64,000 nt of DNA from the NCBI RefSeq assembly GCF_000003815.2, contig NC_049979.1, positions 8,768,985 through 8,832,984 on the forward strand. Direction: 5' to 3'. The stretch is from Branchiostoma floridae (lineage: Eukaryota > Chordata > Leptocardii > Amphioxiformes > Branchiostomatidae). A model generated the notes under the pieces. It did not search any database. It had not been told where the DNA came from and saw nothing but the letters and a program-made list of their open reading frames with translations. Positions within the stretch are counted from its first letter, which is position 1. Every line of letters begins with the position of its first letter. Shown here in pieces: positions 23,231-62,130 of this stretch. The translations under genes were made by a program, and so were the position numbers.

Positions 23231-26200
23231 ATGGCGCGTGGTCGTGGTGGAAGAGGAGGCCGCCGACGAGAAGATAGACAGAAAGCGAAGCAACGACAAA
23301 TAAACAGGGCTCTGAAGTTATCAGAGATTAACTCTAAAGCTAGATATCAACAGGAAGAGTATCTACGCCGCAGACAGCAAGCAGAAAAGTAAGGATCGGT
23401 GATGGAAAACAGTGCCTGTGTCACATGGGGAGGGGGGCGTAGAACAACATGCTTGCGCTTGCACGTGTTTCAGAAATAATTTCTGATTTTTCACAACAAT
23501 TTGTTGTCCACAGCGATGCCCGAACAAATTAGCGAACTTTCCCTTATCATTTACTTGCTAAGACTGCTCTCGTTGTATTTGCACGTTTTCCCAAACTGTA
23601 CGAACAAGTAGGCCAAAAAGCGTGAAATTATTCGGGTAAACAAATATATAAACATAATGTTTGTCAACACGCAACAAGAGCGGTTCAAACCGGAATTTCA
23701 ATGTTGTTCCTGTCCGAAGATAATTCTTAATCTATAATTAGAAGCAAGGAAATTGTGCAGTGGGGCTTGAAAATAGATAAAACACCTATCGGTTAAGGTA
23801 TGCTATATCATAATGCTATATCAAAATGTTGAATGATTTTTTTGTGTGTGAAAATAAAATAACTCTCACAATGTTTACAGAGATGCACTGAAGAAAGCAC
23901 AGGGAGAATCAAGTCAACAGTCAAGACCAGATAAGGTTTCAATACATTTTGCTATCATTAGTATGCGACCCTGTAATTGCAGTAGTAACACTATACTGCT
24001 TTGCATGAGTCATGTGCAGGGTGTGGTGAATCATATATAAAGAAAGTAGTGATGGATCTTCATGGGGGCAATTTCGTTTGACTTGACTTGATGTTTATTG
24101 TGTTTTATAAAACTTGATTTGATAACATATGAATGAACTATGAATTATAAAAAATCATAAATTAATACAATAATTGGTATTGCCTATCATTGTTATTGGT
24201 TATTGGGTGGGCCGACTACTCACTCTTTGCAGCCAGGGGCTGAATTGCGAGGAGCTTACAATAGGCGGGGCTATATTGCAAGGGTCTGGAGCGAGCTGCC
24301 ATTCGGCGCCACTCAGGTGACCTCAATACGACTGTCGCAAGTGTCTGGAGCGAGCTGCCATTCGGCGCCACTCAGGTGACCTCAATACGACAGTAATTGC
24401 CCCAGGTGCGGCCAAGGTACTGTAGGTTTTGAACCGCTCACACCGCACCATCGCACATGTGGCGGGTTCTTTTACGCGCCCGGGGTATGGCTCTCCCCAG
24501 ACACGGGACCTCCATTTAACGTCCTATCCGAGGGACAACTGATTTTCACTTGAGTAAAGTGAGGAAAGTTCGTGTAAAGTGCCTTTCCCAGGGGCACAAG
24601 ATCGGCAGCACGGCAGGCGGATTCGATCCCGCAACCTCTCGGTCACGAGGCGAACATAATACCACGCGGTCCCAATCATTAGATTTGACTTTATGATTTT
24701 TGGAGGTCAATACCTCGATGATAGAAATTAAAGTGAAGTAATGTTTTGCAGAATGATGAAGCATCATCATCATCATCCAGTGAGAGTGAAGATGAGAGGC
24801 AGACAGCGTATGATCTCCTAGTAACATCACTCCAGTCAAACAGAGATCAGAGCTCCTCTGAAGAGATCTCAGAATCTGAGGAGGAGGAGGAGGAGGAGAA
24901 GGATAGTGTACAGGAGGAGGAGGATGACATTGAAAGTGATGAAGACATTGAAGAGGAAGAGGGTGATGCTGAAGATGTCAGTACTGACAATGAGGAGGAG
25001 GAAGCTATTCCTGAGGACCAATCCACTGAAGAAGAAAAAACTCTAAAGGGAAAGAAGAGGAAAAAAGAAGATGATGGACAAGATGGAATCCTAGAGCAAA
25101 GGAAGATAAAAAAGAAGCTTAAAGCGACAAAAGAACAAGAAGACAGGGAGGAGCAAGAGAAGGAAGGACAGTGGTCTTCAGATGGAGAAAGTGAGGGAGA
25201 TGACCTCGAAGAAGAAAAGTCCACGACTGGAAAAGGTAATACTATGTTCCACTTTTACTTTGTCACAGTTTGTAGTATTTATCTTCAGAAAAGATTAAAC
25301 ATTTTGTTTTGTATCACTTTCGCAAAGTCTTCTTATAGATATCTTCACACAGTAACAATTTAGCCACAGGAAAGAGTTACAGGTCAATGTTGCATACTGA
25401 CTCATGGTACTGGGTATACTGTGCTTGTTCCTTACGCTGCAGACCCGTTTTGGCATCATCTGACCACTGAACTGCAGGAAGACCAGGTAGACAAGCTGGG
25501 GAAGCAGAGCAACTGGACGAGGAAGGAGGCAATGGTTTGTGTTTTGATAGATTGCATAGGTCTAGTCACTATTACAATATTGTGTGTGATGCACTTACTT
25601 ACTTGTATTTTACTTGTTGTTGTGAAGTTAGTGTTAAGATAGGTAAAAAAAAGTTTTAGGACTCCATATTTTTTGTACTCAATTTGTTTTGTAAATGCTG
25701 TTTCAATACTTTCTCTCAATATTGGAAACTTTCTTACTTACTCACAACATGCTCTCTGCTATGACAGCTGTAGCTATATAATAATGCAGTACCCCAGACC
25801 TAATCAAACCAAACTTTTGTAAGAATGCCCACCCCTCATTCATAGGTGTATGATGTGATTATATCCTGCAGTGGAAAGGTCTCGGCAGACTTGTGCACAC
25901 CTTCTGTACAGAGGTTCCCAATAGCAGCATCACTGTCAACAAGGACAGCATCAACAAAATGAATGTAAGCATTGTTGACCATATATTTCTTGTACAGTAA
26001 AATCCATTGATAGATGTCCTTTCTTCCCTTTAAAGATATCTCTGATTAAAGAATGATTTCACATCACTGCAAGTTGGTGATTGATAGCTGATGTAATTGA
26101 ACACACAAATAAGATGAGGCGCAGATACAAGAACGGCACTGTTTGGTTCAATGTAAAATTTAATGTCAGACTCTTCTGTCATGTTTGCATTTTTCAAAAA

Positions 26201-52402: not shown

Positions 52403-53865
52403 ATGTTAACTGCATTTTTCCTACTCGCCGTGTTAACCTCTTCGTGTGAGTATACATGTTTTGACTTATTGTTAAATTTTGTTAACCCCTCAGCAATAGT
52501 CTCGTCAATACATTATTTCTTTACGGTGTAAAGACTGGCTTAAATTTAAAAAAAAAATAACCTAAACTGTAGATAACATTGCTGGCATCAAGTGACAGCA
52601 ATAAAGATCGAGGACATCTTCATATAAAACCTGTAAGTTGGATGGAAATTGGATTATTACAAGCGCCAAATTATTCCAGCCAAACTATACATGGTAACAG
52701 AGCGATGTCAATATGTCTTTGTGCCTACAGCGTAAAGCCTAGCATCTCCAAAAGCCTCATCACCAAAGCTTAGCTACTTTCCCTATTCATTTATTTGCAA
52801 TGACAGGTGCATGGCATAAGGAAATGAATTCAGATTCAGTATACACATGCAGCTGCAATCATTGTTTCCCGTTTCAGCTGATGCCCAGTCCGTCTGTGAG
52901 CACCCCGCCAACCTGACATCCGACAGCGGCCAGTTCTCCAGCCCGGGATACCCAGATAACTATCCCATCAACACGCAGTGTTCATGGAGCATAACTGTGC
53001 CGGACGGGAAGCTCGTGAGGATCTCGTTCCTGAACTTTGACCTAGAAGACGACTCTGGGTGTGGGTACGACTCCCTGGTTATCCATGACGGGGACAGCAC
53101 ACTTGACTACAGACTCCTGAGCGCCTGTGGAAGCAATGTGAGTTCAGTTGAACCAATATGTCATCTTTCGACCGTAAAATGTCTTCGTAATTGGTTGAAC
53201 AATCAGCGTCACAAGAAATTTAATGTTAATTTACATTTCAAAAGTTGTCGTCTTTACCAGGTACCAATCTGATATATATTGATAGATGCCGCTACATTTA
53301 CTGTCACAAGAAGTAAACTGTTTGACGTTATATTTCTAGATTCCGCGGCCCACAGTTTCCTCAACAAACACCGTTCTCGTCGTGTTCACGTCAGACGGGT
53401 CAATCACCAAAGCCGGCTTTTCCGTTGTCTTCACATCCGAAGATGCACCAGGTGAATGTTCGGCATACTGCACTTCTGTGTTCATATACCAACTGTTTAC
53501 GTAGTTTGAATGTTTCTCTATAGTATAACTTTACTTATATAAAGATAGAAAATCGCGACCTCTTGGTACTTTTTTCAGCAACCTGTGGACCTGACGAATT
53601 CACCTGCATGACTGGTACCTGCGTAAACGTCAACGCAACATGTGATGGCGTCAACGACTGCGGAGATAACAGTGACGAGTACACATGTGGTATGTACGTC
53701 ATGGCACTACCAAAGTACAGTAGTAAATGTGATGATGGCAAGATGGTAACTATTGCCGTGTATAGATATTACAACATCTGTACTAGGTGTACTGTCAAGT
53801 AGAAGTGGTCCCATTAGTTCACATTTATCGTGGGATAACCTATATCCGTTGTATTTAGGGAAATC

Positions 53866-53904: not shown

Positions 53905-55630
53905 GACGTTTCTCTTGCTTGCCAGGTGAAGGCCAGTGCGGCATGACGCCCATTCCGCCCGTGTTTCCCGCCAGTCGGATCGTGGGCGGGTCGGAGGCCT
54001 ACCCGGGCAGCTGGCCGTGGCAGGTGGACGTGCGGCGCCGAGGCGGGCACATCTGCGGGGCCGCGCTGATCCACAGACAGTGGGTGCTGAGTGCCGCACA
54101 TTGTTTCCAGAGGTGAGCACATAGCCTCTACCAGGCTCCGCGGATCACTGGACAAATAGTGGAAATTGGCCAGTGCGCAGTATGCTAGGGGAGTCGGTCG
54201 TCGGTGTAGGGTCCAATAGGCGAACCATTGACTCTATGGCCCGTAAACTTCACTCTATTTCTACTATCTGTCCAGCGATCTACGGAGGCTGGTAGAGGTT
54301 TGAAGTCGTGCCCACTTGTACATAAACTTCACCTAGAAAGGACTACGCTACAGCCAGATATTGGGCTGGAAGGTCCTGACGCCTCTGACTACCTCTCCGA
54401 TAGGTACTCACAGAAAACCAGGCTATCGGAAAGTGTTACGATCTCCCACCTGGTTGGAGATCAGAGGACAATGGTTGTAAAAAAAGATTTAAAATACACT
54501 ATCTCCTACCGTTCCTAAAACAGCCTTCTTTACATGTACATTTTGTCGCTGATTTTCCTTTTCCTTTCCTGCCTTCAGCAAAGAGCTGAGCATGTACACC
54601 TTCATCCTTGGGAAGTATCACAAGTTCGCCACGGACGCCACGGAGCAGGTCTTCCGCCCCGCCGTCATCATCAAACACCATGACTACGATGTACGGTGCT
54701 TATGGCTTACCTAGGCTGATAGAATAAAGACAAAAGTAGACATCTGAGTGCTATTCCTCAAGAAAACATATATTACACACGTAAGATAGAAATGACTTTA
54801 CTCTAAGATACATGTCGGTGTGGTATTTGGATGAGCCTTTGATTTCCATATCCCGTGTGTCCTCTTCTACCAAATGTAACATCACCGTTTATACAGAGGC
54901 AGAAAAGTAGTCATCACAACTAGCAAGATGACGAATTGAACGAATGCAAAAATGTTGGAGATGTATACCCTGTAACTGTTTTCTTTTTTTTCGTTTCCTT
55001 CAGTGGCGCACATCAGACAACGACATCGCGTTGATCAAGTTGGCCACCCCGGCCACCCTGACGCCGTACGTACAGCCTGTCTGCCTCCCCGAGACCGACC
55101 CCAAGGCCGGGCAGCTCACCGTGGCCACGGGGTGGGGATACACACAGGGTACGGTTAGAACATGGCGGCAAACCGGACTGCAATAGCACACATATCACTG
55201 CCTTTCGATCGTTCGTGTCTATGCCATATCTATTCATCTCAGCTAAGTTTGGTCATTAATTCAAGTGAGTTATCAATGACATTGTTGTCAAAGCGAACAA
55301 CCTCAAAATTATTTTTCGTCCTTAAAATGTCAGGAAGATATCACGGAAATTAAAGCGCCATAATATGGACATAGGCACAACAAAACACTTGGAATGACAG
55401 GAGTTTCTATTTTCTTGGTAAGATAATGATGGACATTATCCTCTGAGGTAATCATTTAGCTGATACTTACAAATTACTAAACTATATATCTACATTTCTC
55501 ATATCACGTTCGCAGGTACTGGTGGGGATGACGTGTTGAAGCAGGTCCTGTTGCCGGTAGTGAAGACCAGTAAGTGTAACTCCACCTCCATGCACGATGG
55601 CAGCATCACGGAGAACATGCTGTGTGCCGG

Positions 55631-56775
55631 TGTGACAGCGATCTCGCCCCCCCGTGATCTCGCCCCCCCCCCGGGGGCGAAATCACTAGCGATCTCGCCC
55701 CCCCGGGGCGAAATCACTAGCGATCTCGCCCTCCCCGGCTAGTGATCTCGCCCCCCTACCTCGCCCCCCTTTAGCGATTTCGCCCCCCCCCCCAAAAAAA
55801 ACGGGTTTACATGACATTTTAGAAGTTGATTGGTATAAATCACAAAATGCAGTTTCAGAATGATATAAGTACGCGAGTTTGATACATAACTCCATTCATA
55901 GTATCAATATTAACGTAATTACATGGTAATAAGATAGTTGAACTTGTTTCAGACAAGGAGGGTTGGGTCCCTTGTATTCCAATTATTGCATATACCTGAG
56001 TCTTGACATAAGATTATTTCATTGTATTCACCTGTCCTCAAGCAACCTATATATCTCCAATATGAAGTCTCTACCATGAAGTGACCACAAAATAACTATG
56101 TAATGTCTTTATTAATTATGCAAATATTAGGTATTAATTAGAATAACGCACATTTTGGTATATGCACCTGGCCAAGGGATATCTTCACCTCCAACATGAC
56201 TGTTTTTTCTAGTATCTAGGAACTGATGCATTTACCCGTGTTTCTTAAGACTGGTACTTTACCAGTGTTTGTGTAGCATTTAGCAACAGCTATATCAACT
56301 TGCGCGTAGATAGTGTTTATAATGAGAAACTATTATTCACGTGTGTTTTTGTTAGTGCTTTGGAAATGTTTCCAGCACAAGAAAGAAAACACTGTGACAA
56401 ATTGAAAACATATAGCTGACGTACCATACCATAGACGGTGTTGATTTATACGTTCGCAGTAGCACTGTTTTTATGCCACCTCAGCTGCAAAAATTGTCTT
56501 TTTCATTTCAATGTTATGTTTGCACCGAACAATATAGTATCGACTTTCGAGGTATGACATCTTACGGTACGGTAATAAGGTGCCATATAGGTACCAGGTA
56601 ACACACCATATACATTACTCCCCAGGTGCAGTATAGTGCCAGGTAGCGCACCTGTAATATGTAGTAACCAGCTGCTTTTGGGGGGGGGGGCGAAAACGCT
56701 AAAGGGGGGCGAAAACGCTAGTGATCTCGCCCCCCGGGGGGGCGAGATCACAGGGGGGGCGAGATCGCTGTCACA
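55631..56775. mobile_element. 1145-bp inverted-repeat transposon inside a protease exon
   Basis: Begins TGTGACAGCGATCTCGCC (55631) and ends with its exact reverse complement at 56775. Both sides carry CCGG (55627-55630 and 56776-56779), so the target duplication is 4 bp. Removing the element and one CCGG restores MLCAG-YQEG in frame. Subterminal regions are arrays of GATCTCGCCCCCC and GGGGGGCGAGATC modules mixed with GCGAAATCACTAGC. The middle is AT-rich with no reading frame of note, so it is non-autonomous. TGTNR ends and a 4-bp duplication are features reported for Ginger-type transposons; that assignment is tentative. Confidence 0.9.
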
Positions 56776-57212
56776 CCGGGTACCAGGAGGGGCAGCAGGA
56801 CACGTGTGATGTAAAGATCAAATACGTTTTCATTCCCAACAGAGCTCTCTACAAAAATACTGTCACTTTTGACAGGATTCTTTTAAGATGCTTGTGATTC
56901 TTAAAGTGGTCATACCTTTAAATTTTGTGACCACCTGTCTACTTTGACCGTTTTCCTCAAGTCCCACGAGTGATTATTGAACAGGCAGGGATTTTCTAGA
57001 ACTTCGAAGTTTTAGTTAATTCTGTGCTGACATCTTTCCAGGGAGACAGTGGCGGACCGCTCGTGTATCCTGACAACACGGACCAAACATGGCGCCTCGC
57101 CGGGCTCACCAGCTGGGGTAGCGTGCCGTGTGCAGCGAGCATGCGCCCTGGCGTGTACACGCGCGTCACCAGGTACCTCCAATGGATACAGGAGAAAATG
57201 GCAGCTTACTGA

Positions 57213-57847: not shown

Positions 57848-60800
57848 TTAGTTATTCTTGATGACGTTGTAGATCCAGTCCGGATACATGGCCACGTTTG
57901 TGTAGACGCCGGGTTTCTTGGGGCTCCCGCACGGGCTCGGGCCCCAGCTCACCAGCCCAGCTAGATACCAGCTTCCGTCGGGACGGCGGCATGCCAACGG
58001 GCCTCCGCTGTCACCCTGCACACGTAAACAGGTTACCATTGTGACTATTTGTACAAGACAGAACTAATGTGTGCGTACATCGCGAAAACACCGTCAAAGC
58101 AAACACTTTACATAAGATACGTTATGTAAGTCATGACCTTTAAAATGACGCATATCTTATAAACAAAATGATACCCCAATTCATGTTTTACCTGAAATCA
58201 AGTGTTAGTTTTAATCTTACTGGTATTTAGCAGCCACTTAGTTCTAGTTAACTCTCAACTAGGGTAAGGCTTAGGTCACAATTCCCATCTCGGGGCCCGC
58301 CCGGGTAGCTTTCGGAAACAAAAAAATATAATATAAATGACAACGAAAGACACAGAACGTAAAGAAAATAGTCATGAGCATAATTTGTGTATATTCCTTG
58401 ATAAACACTTTTATTTTTCGTTTCCGCAAACATCCCGGCCGGGGCCCGGTTTGTAAATGTGACCTAGGCCTTAGTGGGGTGGCATAGCTGAGCCTGAGCA
58501 TAGCTTCATGTTCTCTGGTCCTGATATGTGCTATTAGATATTTAAAAATCCCTCCACAAATCCATAATATCATCCAAAATATCATCGAAACCAAACACTT
58601 ATTTCAACTTTAAGAGAAATCTCTGAGACAGAAGTAGAGCTGCCTACGTTACAAGAGTCCACTCCGCCCTCCTCGTAGCCTGCACAGACGTTACTGTCGG
58701 TGAAGGCCAGCCCGTTGAGGTGGTCTGCATCGTTACACGTGGTCATGTCCACCACGGGAACCTTCCCCTGCTGCAGGCTGTCAGCCAAGTGGCCATCGTC
58801 TGGACAAAATCCACGACAACTTTATATATAAGTACGTATGCCGATAGCTAGAACTATCACTGTGCTGTACGGAAAAAACATGTTGGTATCACTCCAGTCT
58901 CCATACTTCTTATTATCAATATTGTTCATGACTGTCCATTGTCACTATGTTTATACCATGTACTTGCAATTAGTCCTCGGGCACGAACTTGCAAATAAAC
59001 TTATTATTATTATACTAACCTTCTGTGTAATGACACGGCGCAGCATTCGTTACTTTAGAGACTTTTTTTAAATCGCCCGAAAACTAAAATTAGAACGACC
59101 ATCGTGCTTGAGCTGCAGCTGGTCGAAGAATCAATGTTCCGTTTACTTGTCCGCGCAGTCACAGTGTCCAGCCGTAACAAAAACTACATGATGAATTTGC
59201 TTCTTCAACACATCAAGGGGTTCTGTAATGCCACATGTAGGCTCACCTGTGGCTCCTGTACAGAGTGCAACAGAATATGCAGATCATGGAGTGGGCTCCT
59301 GAGCCACATCAAACAGGAGCCACAACAGAGTTCGACCTTCCAGAGACGCACAGATGGTCTTCTGAGACCGGACTGCCAAAGGAGAAGAACTCTCACCTGT
59401 GGCTCCCCACCCCGTGGTGTAACAGAACGTCCCGGCTGCAGGCTCGCTGTCTGGCAGACAGACCACGCCGACGTGGTCGTTCAGCTCTGCGGACCGCGAC
59501 AGCTTCAGCAGCGCGATGTCGTTGTCCAGTCCGTTCGTGTAGCCCTCGTGCTGGAACACCTGCTCCACCGGGATGTCCTGCTGGAAGGGGTCGGCGGTTT
59601 GACGGCGGTGGGCCCCGAGGTACACCGTGAACAGCGCGGCATCCACACTGGAGGGGTTGATATTAGCAAGTCACATCACAAAGTTATGATCACATAATCT
59701 GCACATAGCGTGTTGTTAGTGACAGGATCACTGTCGATGAAACTCTTTTGTATTTTCCTCATCTAAATTTAACTGTCAATGACACGACGTTACACTCGCT
59801 CATCAGATACAGACATTCATATTATCTTAACTCCTAAAACCTTTTTACCCTGAATCTGGCATGTTCCTTACCCGTCCACACAGTGTCCAGCCGTGACAGC
59901 CCAACGGGGGTGGACGAGGGCTCCCCCGCACACATGCCAGCGGCCTGTCCCCTGTCTTAAGGATACCTGGGCAAAAAACATGGCGATCAATCAACACTAG
60001 CCCTAGTAGCTCGTCGCATGTGATTGTAGATTATACATCGACCTAATGACTACTACGGATAATTTCCCTAACTTGTAGATTAGTTTTTTTTTTACTAGCT
60101 ACGTGTCGATGGCGTTTTTAAAAGGCTCGGTCTCGCTGACCGTATGTACCTGCCATGGCCAGCTGCCAGGGACGGCCTCGGTACCGCCAACCACCCGCGA
60201 CATGGCCGGGCTGATGGCGGGGGTGCCGCAGGTCTCCTGTCCCAGGGTGATCTCTGTGATGCACAGGACAAAATTGCCAGGTTACACATGCGTATATTGC
60301 GCATTAGCAGCAGAAGGTAATCAGTTGATAGAACAGAGGTTTATTCCTAGGTATAGACATGAAAAACCCTGCCTGTGCCAAGCCTGCAAGGACAAGCGTT
60401 GCAAGGACAGGCATTCATAAGTTCTTCTAAACAAATGGCTCCTCTCCCGGAAAACAATTTGCACGAGAATGCTTCGTAATTAAGGGATAAATTATTGCTG
60501 AAGATCCTTACCACATTTTGGGATGTCGCAATACTGCCATCTGTAGACGCTGTCCTGTACGTAGCACCAGGGCCGCTGGTCCCCGTCCGGATTGCGGCAG
60601 TAGTTCCGGTCGAGTTGCACGTCGGGATAGCTCATGTAGTTCACCCAAGGCTGACAGGGCAGGCCCCACCGGGTGGTGGACACCGTGCCTTTGTAGTTAG
60701 CGCCGTTACCAATCGTGCATACTAAGTCTAGAAAAGATTTATTGCATTAGTTTCTATCAAACTTATTAATGTCTCGCTCTGCCAAATATTGGCCAAATAC

Positions 60801-62130
60801 TAATAGCCAGATACATGTAGCACATTCAAAGGAGTTGGAGTACAGCAATCTCCGATTCCCGATTGTTGCCTGGCGCCTCTCTCTGGCTAGTTTTTACTAT
60901 TTTACCCTTTGAGTGACTATCATTTATGTTGCCATATCTATTTGGTTGGGTTTTCAGTGCGACAGACGAGTATACAATGACTGTATGGCAATGTATAATT
61001 AAGCAAATGTTGTTAATCTGTCGGCATCGACGATGACCAGGGACATCACGTTGTCCTAGCCTGTCAGGAACGGTGTATCCTGCTGCGGCTGATGAGTCCG
61101 ATGTGATGCAAATATGATGCAGCTCACGGTTTTAACATGAATGCTAGTAGACACAGAAACATTAGCACAAACTTTAAAAGTGATCTGCTATTCCTTGGGA
61201 AAGTACAAGATGGAAATTACTGTATGTTATAGCTACATCCAAATATTGTTCATTAAAGTCAATGGTTGATTAGTGATTGCCAATGCGAAACTGGAGATTT
61301 ATTCGGTTGGCACCTAAGACAATTAGGTTGTTGTGCACAAAAGGCTGATTGATCAATTGGCCAACATATGCAGCATAAGGTTCCAAAGCCGGTTAGCTGG
61401 ACAATTTTTCACTGGCTCACCGCACGACTGTATGTCGCAGTCCTCCCATCTGACAGCGCTGTCGGTGGTATAGCACCAGGGGTTGGTGTGGTTGTCCGGG
61501 TTCCTGCAGTAGTTGTCCCGCAGGTCGGCCTGGGGCTTGCTCTCGGGGGTGATGGCGTGTTGGTGGGGCAGCTGGCTGTCCCATCGCTGGCACTCCCTCC
61601 CCGACATCGTGCGGTTGGTGTCACCGCGGTAGGCGCTACCGAGATAACATTCTGTATCCAAACAGACATTAAAATTAATGCAACTCACAAGAACATATAT
61701 AAACTCAATAAACTCATTGTAGAGGCATCTATATGCTTTGCTTTCTGTGAAAACCTCAACGATTATATAGTATAGAGTTGCGTTTCAACTGCCCAACAGG
61801 TTTCCTCAGTCATACAGAAAGGCTTAAAACACCAAATTGTATGTCTGTTCAATTTCGCGTCCCTTCAGCCATTAGTGTGACTTAAGGTGTGTATTTTGAA
61901 AACTTTTCTTGATTGCAAAAAACGTTGTACCCAAATCAAAATTATGTAACAGCTGTGGCGTCTTGGAGCTAGTAAACCACACCAAGAAGGTTAAAAAAAG
62001 GACATGAAGAAAAGTATTTGTCATGAATATTGAATATAACAATAGAATCCACAAAAGTGTACCCACCTCCAGCCACTGAAGCGCCAATTCCTAACGAAAC
62101 AATAAAAACTACACTAGAGATCATTTTCAT
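57848..62130 (-). CDS. Two-kringle trypsin-like serine protease
   Basis: Secreted protease of plasminogen/tPA-like layout. Exons in transcript order: 62130-62067, 61651-61421, 60727-60512, 60253-60150, 59966-59872, 59647-59397, 58799-58648, 58015-57848; phases agree, 426 residues. Signal peptide [20 protein letters not shown]. Kringle 1 ([20 protein letters not shown] to [10 protein letters not shown]) and kringle 2 ([19 protein letters not shown] to WQYCDIPKC). Activation site SRVVGGTE; catalytic His in TAGHC (Gly in place of the usual Ala), Asp in DNDIALLKL, Ser in GDSGGP. The Asp of VDSCN points to cleavage after Arg/Lys. Vertebrate relatives act in fibrinolysis or growth-factor activation; the substrate here is unknown. 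The intron 58800-59396 holds a copy of the preceding exon's end and donor at 59241-59256. Confidence 0.93.
58265..58474. repeat. Inverted-repeat element (family F, copy 4)
   Basis: Left TAAGGCTTAGGTCACA with CGGGGCCCGCCCGGG; right CCCGGCCGGGGCCCGG with TGTGACCTAGGCCTTA, its inverse. The core has GAGCATAATTTGTGTATATT as in the copy at 2851. Lies in an intron of the kringle protease. Confidence 0.75.

Follow-up and report, generated by a model that had tools for sequence, protein, structure and literature searches.

The window, a 64,000-nucleotide stretch of the Branchiostoma floridae genome, carries a protease gene that a Pfam scan of its exon pieces identifies as the CUB-LDLa-trypsin type, and one trypsin exon of this gene is interrupted by a transposon. 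The features at the locus are the following.

~52.4 kb to 57.2 kb, plus strand: protease gene, with a signal-peptide-like start read by eye
52820..53802, plus strand: CUB and LDL-receptor class A exons in the 5' part of the gene (the scanned stretch, not exact exon borders)
53926..54112, plus strand: trypsin exon 1, with IVGG and AAHC (open frame, Pfam Trypsin, splice borders)
54579..54690, plus strand: trypsin exon 2 (open frame and splice borders; outside the Pfam scan)
55004..55148, plus strand: trypsin exon 3, with DNDIAL (open frame, Pfam Trypsin, splice borders)
55516..56810, plus strand: host exon, the fourth trypsin exon, with the insert (acceptor and donor read; Pfam on the 5' part)
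55627..55630, plus strand: CCGG target-site duplication, left copy
55631..56775, plus strand: non-autonomous DNA transposon of 1,145 bp, TGTGACAG...CTGTCACA (the same boundaries recur in relatives elsewhere in the genome)
55631..55703, plus strand: left terminal inverted repeat
55740..55742, plus strand: premature TAG stop within the element
56704..56775, minus strand: right terminal inverted repeat
56776..56779, plus strand: CCGG target-site duplication, right copy
57042..57212, plus strand: trypsin exon 5, carrying GDSGGP and, past the premature stop, the native stop codon (open frame, Pfam Trypsin, borders)
58640..58840, minus strand: homologous exon of the neighbouring protease gene, uninterrupted (open frame, splice borders)

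Over profile positions 1-80 of 110, the 5' stretch matches Pfam CUB (E 2.8e-19); it also matches Ldl_recept_a (E 2.7e-12). All five trypsin exons are open and bordered by AG and GT, and Pfam Trypsin was found in all four that were scanned, including the 5' part of the host exon (E 6.7e-5), which measures 146 nt when the insert is subtracted. Comparison of trypsin exon 1 with solved structures places it in the general trypsin family only, with matches to chymotrypsin, TMPRSS6, plasminogen and others. The neighbouring minus-strand gene (57848-61784) has an apparent pair of kringle domains, read by eye, and an apparently uninterrupted trypsin domain; upstream of the insertion point, its homologous exon shares 13 identities in 35 positions with the host exon. 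An intron of the host gene holds another dispersed inverted-repeat element (~54116-54298), with ends like CCTCTACCAGGCTCC.

The original prediction, made from the sequence, was that a transposon with exact inverted arms and a CCGG duplication lies at 55627..56779. Inspection of the ends bears this out, where the outermost 27 nt of the two sides (55627-55653; 56753-56779) are 100% complementary, CCGG stands on either side and hundreds of relatives are found in the genome. Counting the CCGG in, the imperfect inverted repeat has a left arm of 77 nt and a right arm of 76 nt, and the two are 91% alike. Within the window, the 18-nt end occurs at these two sites alone when up to 3 mismatches are allowed, with 0.04 occurrences expected. 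Both termini are C-rich and filled with GATCTCGCC repeats, which on the left extend to ~55800; the left 170 bases are 67% GC versus 36% for the AT-rich body. When folded as single-stranded DNA, the termini are more stable than any of 200 shuffles (left 150 nt, z = -6.1; right 120 nt, z = -3.8), a property that follows from the GATCTCGCC repeats themselves. Stop-to-stop frames touching the element reach at most 104 aa and are thus too short for a transposase. Neither AATAAA nor ATTAAA occurs on the sense strand between 55500 and 57060.

The insertion point is the Gly codon of MLCAG/YQEG, and the CCGG duplication within this codon run is exact on both sides of the window copy, as had been claimed. 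It had likewise been proposed that excision would restore the reading frame and the trypsin motif. Joining the flanks by script gives MLCAGYQEGQQDTCD in frame, where the sequence reads ...SITENMLCAGYQEGQQDTCD up to the GT donor at 56811 and GDSGGP follows on the next exon; the corresponding exon of the neighbouring paralogue is uninterrupted. As assembled, MLCAG is followed by 36 element-encoded residues and then by the stop, which lies after the exons for His and Asp and ahead of the exon for Ser, in keeping with the predicted loss of the catalytic serine exon. The His/Asp/Ser triad therefore falls within one open coding sequence when the flanks are joined and not as assembled. The gain in length, 1,149 nt, is divisible by three, so the damage comes from the element's stop codons and not from a shift of frame. 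The inserted-at CCGG overlaps the codon of what we take to be Gly184 in chymotrypsin numbering, and the residues lost past the stop are presumably Asp189 and Ser195.

To place the element among its relatives, the genome (513 Mb, 431 contigs) was searched. Exact matches to the terminal GGTGTGACAGCGATYTCGCC number 685 (351 forward, 334 reverse), versus 0 on either strand for the reversed control. The 39 relatives scored alongside the window copy are 93-98% identical to it (40 of 919 candidates scored). An alignment of 30 copies, which are the best matches and not a random sample, gives a mean pairwise body difference of 1.8% and a minimum of 0.46%; for 55 copies restricted to 950-1250 bp, the corresponding values are 2.4% and 0.24%.

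The original prediction named no kind of transposon. Ginger1 fits best because the CCGG duplication, the TGTGA ends and the repeat length all match. Ginger1 elements are described as having 4-bp CCGG duplications, TGTNR ends and repeats of 40-270 bp (PMC2836005). The element here has TGTGA at both ends and repeats of 77/76 nt with the CCGG included, and CCGG flanks the window copy and most of the family, standing on both sides in 32 of 49 copies that were not picked for CAGG. According to the same published description, B. floridae itself holds a single autonomous Ginger1 copy with a 77-bp repeat and a few non-autonomous ones. This copy, Ginger1-1_BF (ABEP01037661.1), resembles the present element in species, in the repeat length tabulated for it, in its CCGG duplication and in its TGTNR start; it differs in that no transposase is found here, and the "a few" non-autonomous copies of that description contrast with the 685 exact ends counted above (PMC2836005). 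We therefore regard a non-autonomous Ginger1-type element as the somewhat favoured assignment.

The defining mark of Ginger1 is a transposase with a Gypsy-type integrase (H2C2, DDE, GPY/F), encoded by the element or by a partner. Neither the window copy nor, on reading by eye, the longer end pairs L037-L041 and L087 showed a frame of this kind. These longer pairs span 1.6-4.4 kb and hold N runs (L037, L040, L087), inserts or no evident transposase; reading by eye also covered the one-ended loci L072, L078, L081, L082 and L085, as well as part of L080. In L039, a 3.25-kb copy, a frame lies ~0.5-0.85 kb in, where there is no match to the window copy. This frame resembles what we take to be a mariner DNA-binding region and probably belongs to a nested insertion. 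Like MITEs and other non-autonomous inverted-repeat elements, the family codes for no protein, has inverted repeats, is present in many copies and has diverged little. MITEs are usually shorter, however, and 1.1 kb is long for one; unlike MITEs, the present element sets a GC-rich end around an AT-rich body.

The asymmetry of many junctions led us to weigh a different kind of element. In the 49-copy set, which omits L041 because it occupies the same place as L030 and of which 20 (less one duplicate) were fetched as paired exact GG-bearing ends, CAGG read towards the element stands on one side in 14 copies and on both sides in 3, or 17 in total. The 3 double-CAGG copies compare with ~2.0 expected for independent ends (9 and 11 of 49). 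CAGG is present at 20 of the 98 ends in this set and at 85 of 685 ends genome-wide. Because left and right disagree, a plain 4-bp duplication fails to predict the CAGG junctions. Hydra Ginger1 elements are reported with CCGT/ACGG duplication variants, in contrast to the CAGG variants here (PMC2836005).

An element that is not Ginger1 would account for such asymmetry if its true ends were GGTGTGACAG...CTGTCACACC and it inserted bluntly, without duplication, between C[C/A] and [G/T]G, in which case the CCGG duplication would be illusory. The precedent is Spy, which is described as targeting AAATTT without duplication (PMC4482050). Several tallies agree with blunt insertion. Among the 30 best copies, which were fetched without regard to the junction, GG adjoins the element at 59 of 59 ends, and the third base is C in 47 cases and A in the other 12; GG likewise stands at 124 of 124 ends of 62 distinct copies, many of them fetched with GG- or CAGG-containing patterns. 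A matching 4-bp duplication is missing from 30 of these 62, some of which had been selected for their CAGG, with one-ended loci left out.

The empty copies of a target repeat point the other way. The element lands repeatedly in this high-copy repeat, for which the pattern GGGTACNNGTACAGAAA returns 2,561 exact-pattern sites, mostly with CCGG within the palindrome GTACCGGTAC. In a tally of 100 of these sites, each located on contig C1 and matched by a pattern that fixes the outer C and G, the count is 79 CCGG, 10 CTGG, 8 CCAG, one each of CGGG, CAGG and CCCG, and 0 CATG. Among the filled sites of the repeat, by contrast, four copies have CA..TG junctions (L020, L047, L087, L088) and a fifth CA..GG (L074), where L074, L087 and L088 were fetched for CAGG. 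That is to say, the empty target at the repeat sites is not the two outer flanks joined with no base shared, and the favoured repeat holds CCGG in its empty copies where Spy, of the Spy/PHIS transposons, uses AAATTT without duplication (PMC4482050). The 81 filled junctions after GGGTAC carry C in 67, A in 13, G in 1 and T in 0. Thus A is enriched at filled junctions (13/81 versus 1/100 empty sites, p = 1.4e-4) and T is depleted (0/81 versus 10/100, p = 0.002), p values that are rough because the filled set includes sites outside the repeat and some end pairs of one copy. Junctions and sites were counted by eye. The A excess and lack of T make it look as if the targets are intact CCGG. On these empty-site and filled-junction counts, we consider the zero-duplication reading unlikely.

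We read the A of CAGG, from the junction sequences, as a change made at integration. A is commoner after TA (12/33 versus 8/65, p = 0.008, in the 49-copy set). A heritable end variant was considered and rejected, where nearest-neighbour concordance among copies is about that of shuffled labels (left 0.64 versus 0.57, p = 0.32; right 0.53 versus 0.58, p = 0.74; n = 55). Tentatively, and with more doubt than confidence, we propose that each integration can alter its own target duplication from CCGG to CAGG, at ~1 junction in 8 across the genome, at either end and without inheritance. If so, CAGG would be a built-in signature of end closing by the transposase or by gap repair, with retention of a few donor-flank bases or biased misinsertion as candidate routes, and it would explain some apparently defective duplications. 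This junction oddity is the part of the analysis most likely to interest a specialist, and the family puts hundreds of junctions on offer for the study of Ginger1-type integration.

To date the insertion, the window copy was compared with the majority of the 30 aligned copies, from which it departs at 8 of 860 bases. Two of these changes are private, one is common to one other copy and five are common to seven or eight others; the window copy also has one private single-base gap. With a lancelet mutation rate of 5.89e-9 per base and generation, as given in a published estimate alongside an Ne of ~1.7 million (PMC12862219), two private changes correspond to ~0.39 million generations, with a Poisson range of 0.05-1.4 million. 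This figure dates the divergence from the closest copy in the sample, is based on one copy against 29 of several hundred relatives, and may exceed the insertion's own age. Two average alleles are 2Ne, or 3.4 million generations, apart. On the allele-age scale of lancelets, the insertion is recent as far as its sequence divergence tells. The original prediction of a young insertion thus stands in its conclusion, on the strength of the private substitutions; its own argument, the undamaged host exon, is the poorer one. That a young non-autonomous transposon breaks this protease we regard as almost certain.

If the insertion is recent, an intact allele should still segregate, and intact and broken alleles probably coexist. 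With the upstream flank (1.6 kb of host gene) as query, no second or empty allele turned up in the genome among the 40 scored of 285 candidates; of at least 71 matches within those 40, nearly all are short ones to the two arms of the intron repeat, on both strands. The predicted polymorphism comes from the dating. The interrupted state, being the only one met in the assembly by this upstream-flank search, would also agree with a fixed insertion in a dying pseudogene in place of a polymorphic null. The trypsin exons, however, show no further damage and the divergence of the insert is very low, and fixation appears quite unlikely.

Splicing could in principle make the insert harmless, where the element would be removed as an intron and the gene would remain functional. 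The host sequence has a native GTAAGT (55570), and acceptor-like AGs occur at several places inside and past the element. No GT..AG pair is flush with the element, however, use of the 55570 donor would lose the part of the exon ahead of MLCAG, and skipping of the host exon would shift the frame because that exon is 146 nt without the insert. We reject removal by splicing on these donor and acceptor positions and on exon length, and consider a functional spliced gene very unlikely. Least credible of all is an assembly artefact in which an element from elsewhere was misjoined into the exon, since both junctions are exact to the base, the ends are those of the family, each side has its CCGG and no N run falls in the window copy, although loci of relatives (e.g. 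L037, L040, L083, L086, L087) do hold such runs and C-rich ends may assemble poorly.

Taken together, a non-autonomous cut-and-paste transposon would have entered a CCGG in the Gly codon and duplicated it, mobilised in trans, most likely by a Ginger1-type (Gypsy-integrase-like) transposase. The truncated product would keep CUB, LDLa, His and Asp, end in 36 foreign residues and be without Asp189 and Ser195. Because the stop precedes the last exon junction by ~1.07 kb, nonsense-mediated decay of the message is predicted. We infer from the coding sequence that the broken allele would act as a null allele with nonsense-mediated decay and that protease activity would be lost. The explanation as a whole, a recent Ginger1-type-mobilised insertion giving a truncated protease allele that coexists with an intact one, is likely in our view. 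The kind of event is ordinary, and this is a well-resolved insertional mutation. It offers a clean natural knock-out of a single gene in a highly polymorphic chordate, and so is directly genotypable and usable to probe the role of the protease and the persistence of such alleles.

Two minor observations concern the surroundings. N runs occur at the copy-bearing loci L037, L040, L063, L066, L070, L073, L081-L083 and L085-L087, with 100-3,740 bases where counted, and their presence at many copy loci suggests that the C-rich ends may break assembly or that some stretches are withheld. Elsewhere in the window, 24278-24391 holds a 59-bp unit in 1.9 repeats with a 98% match.
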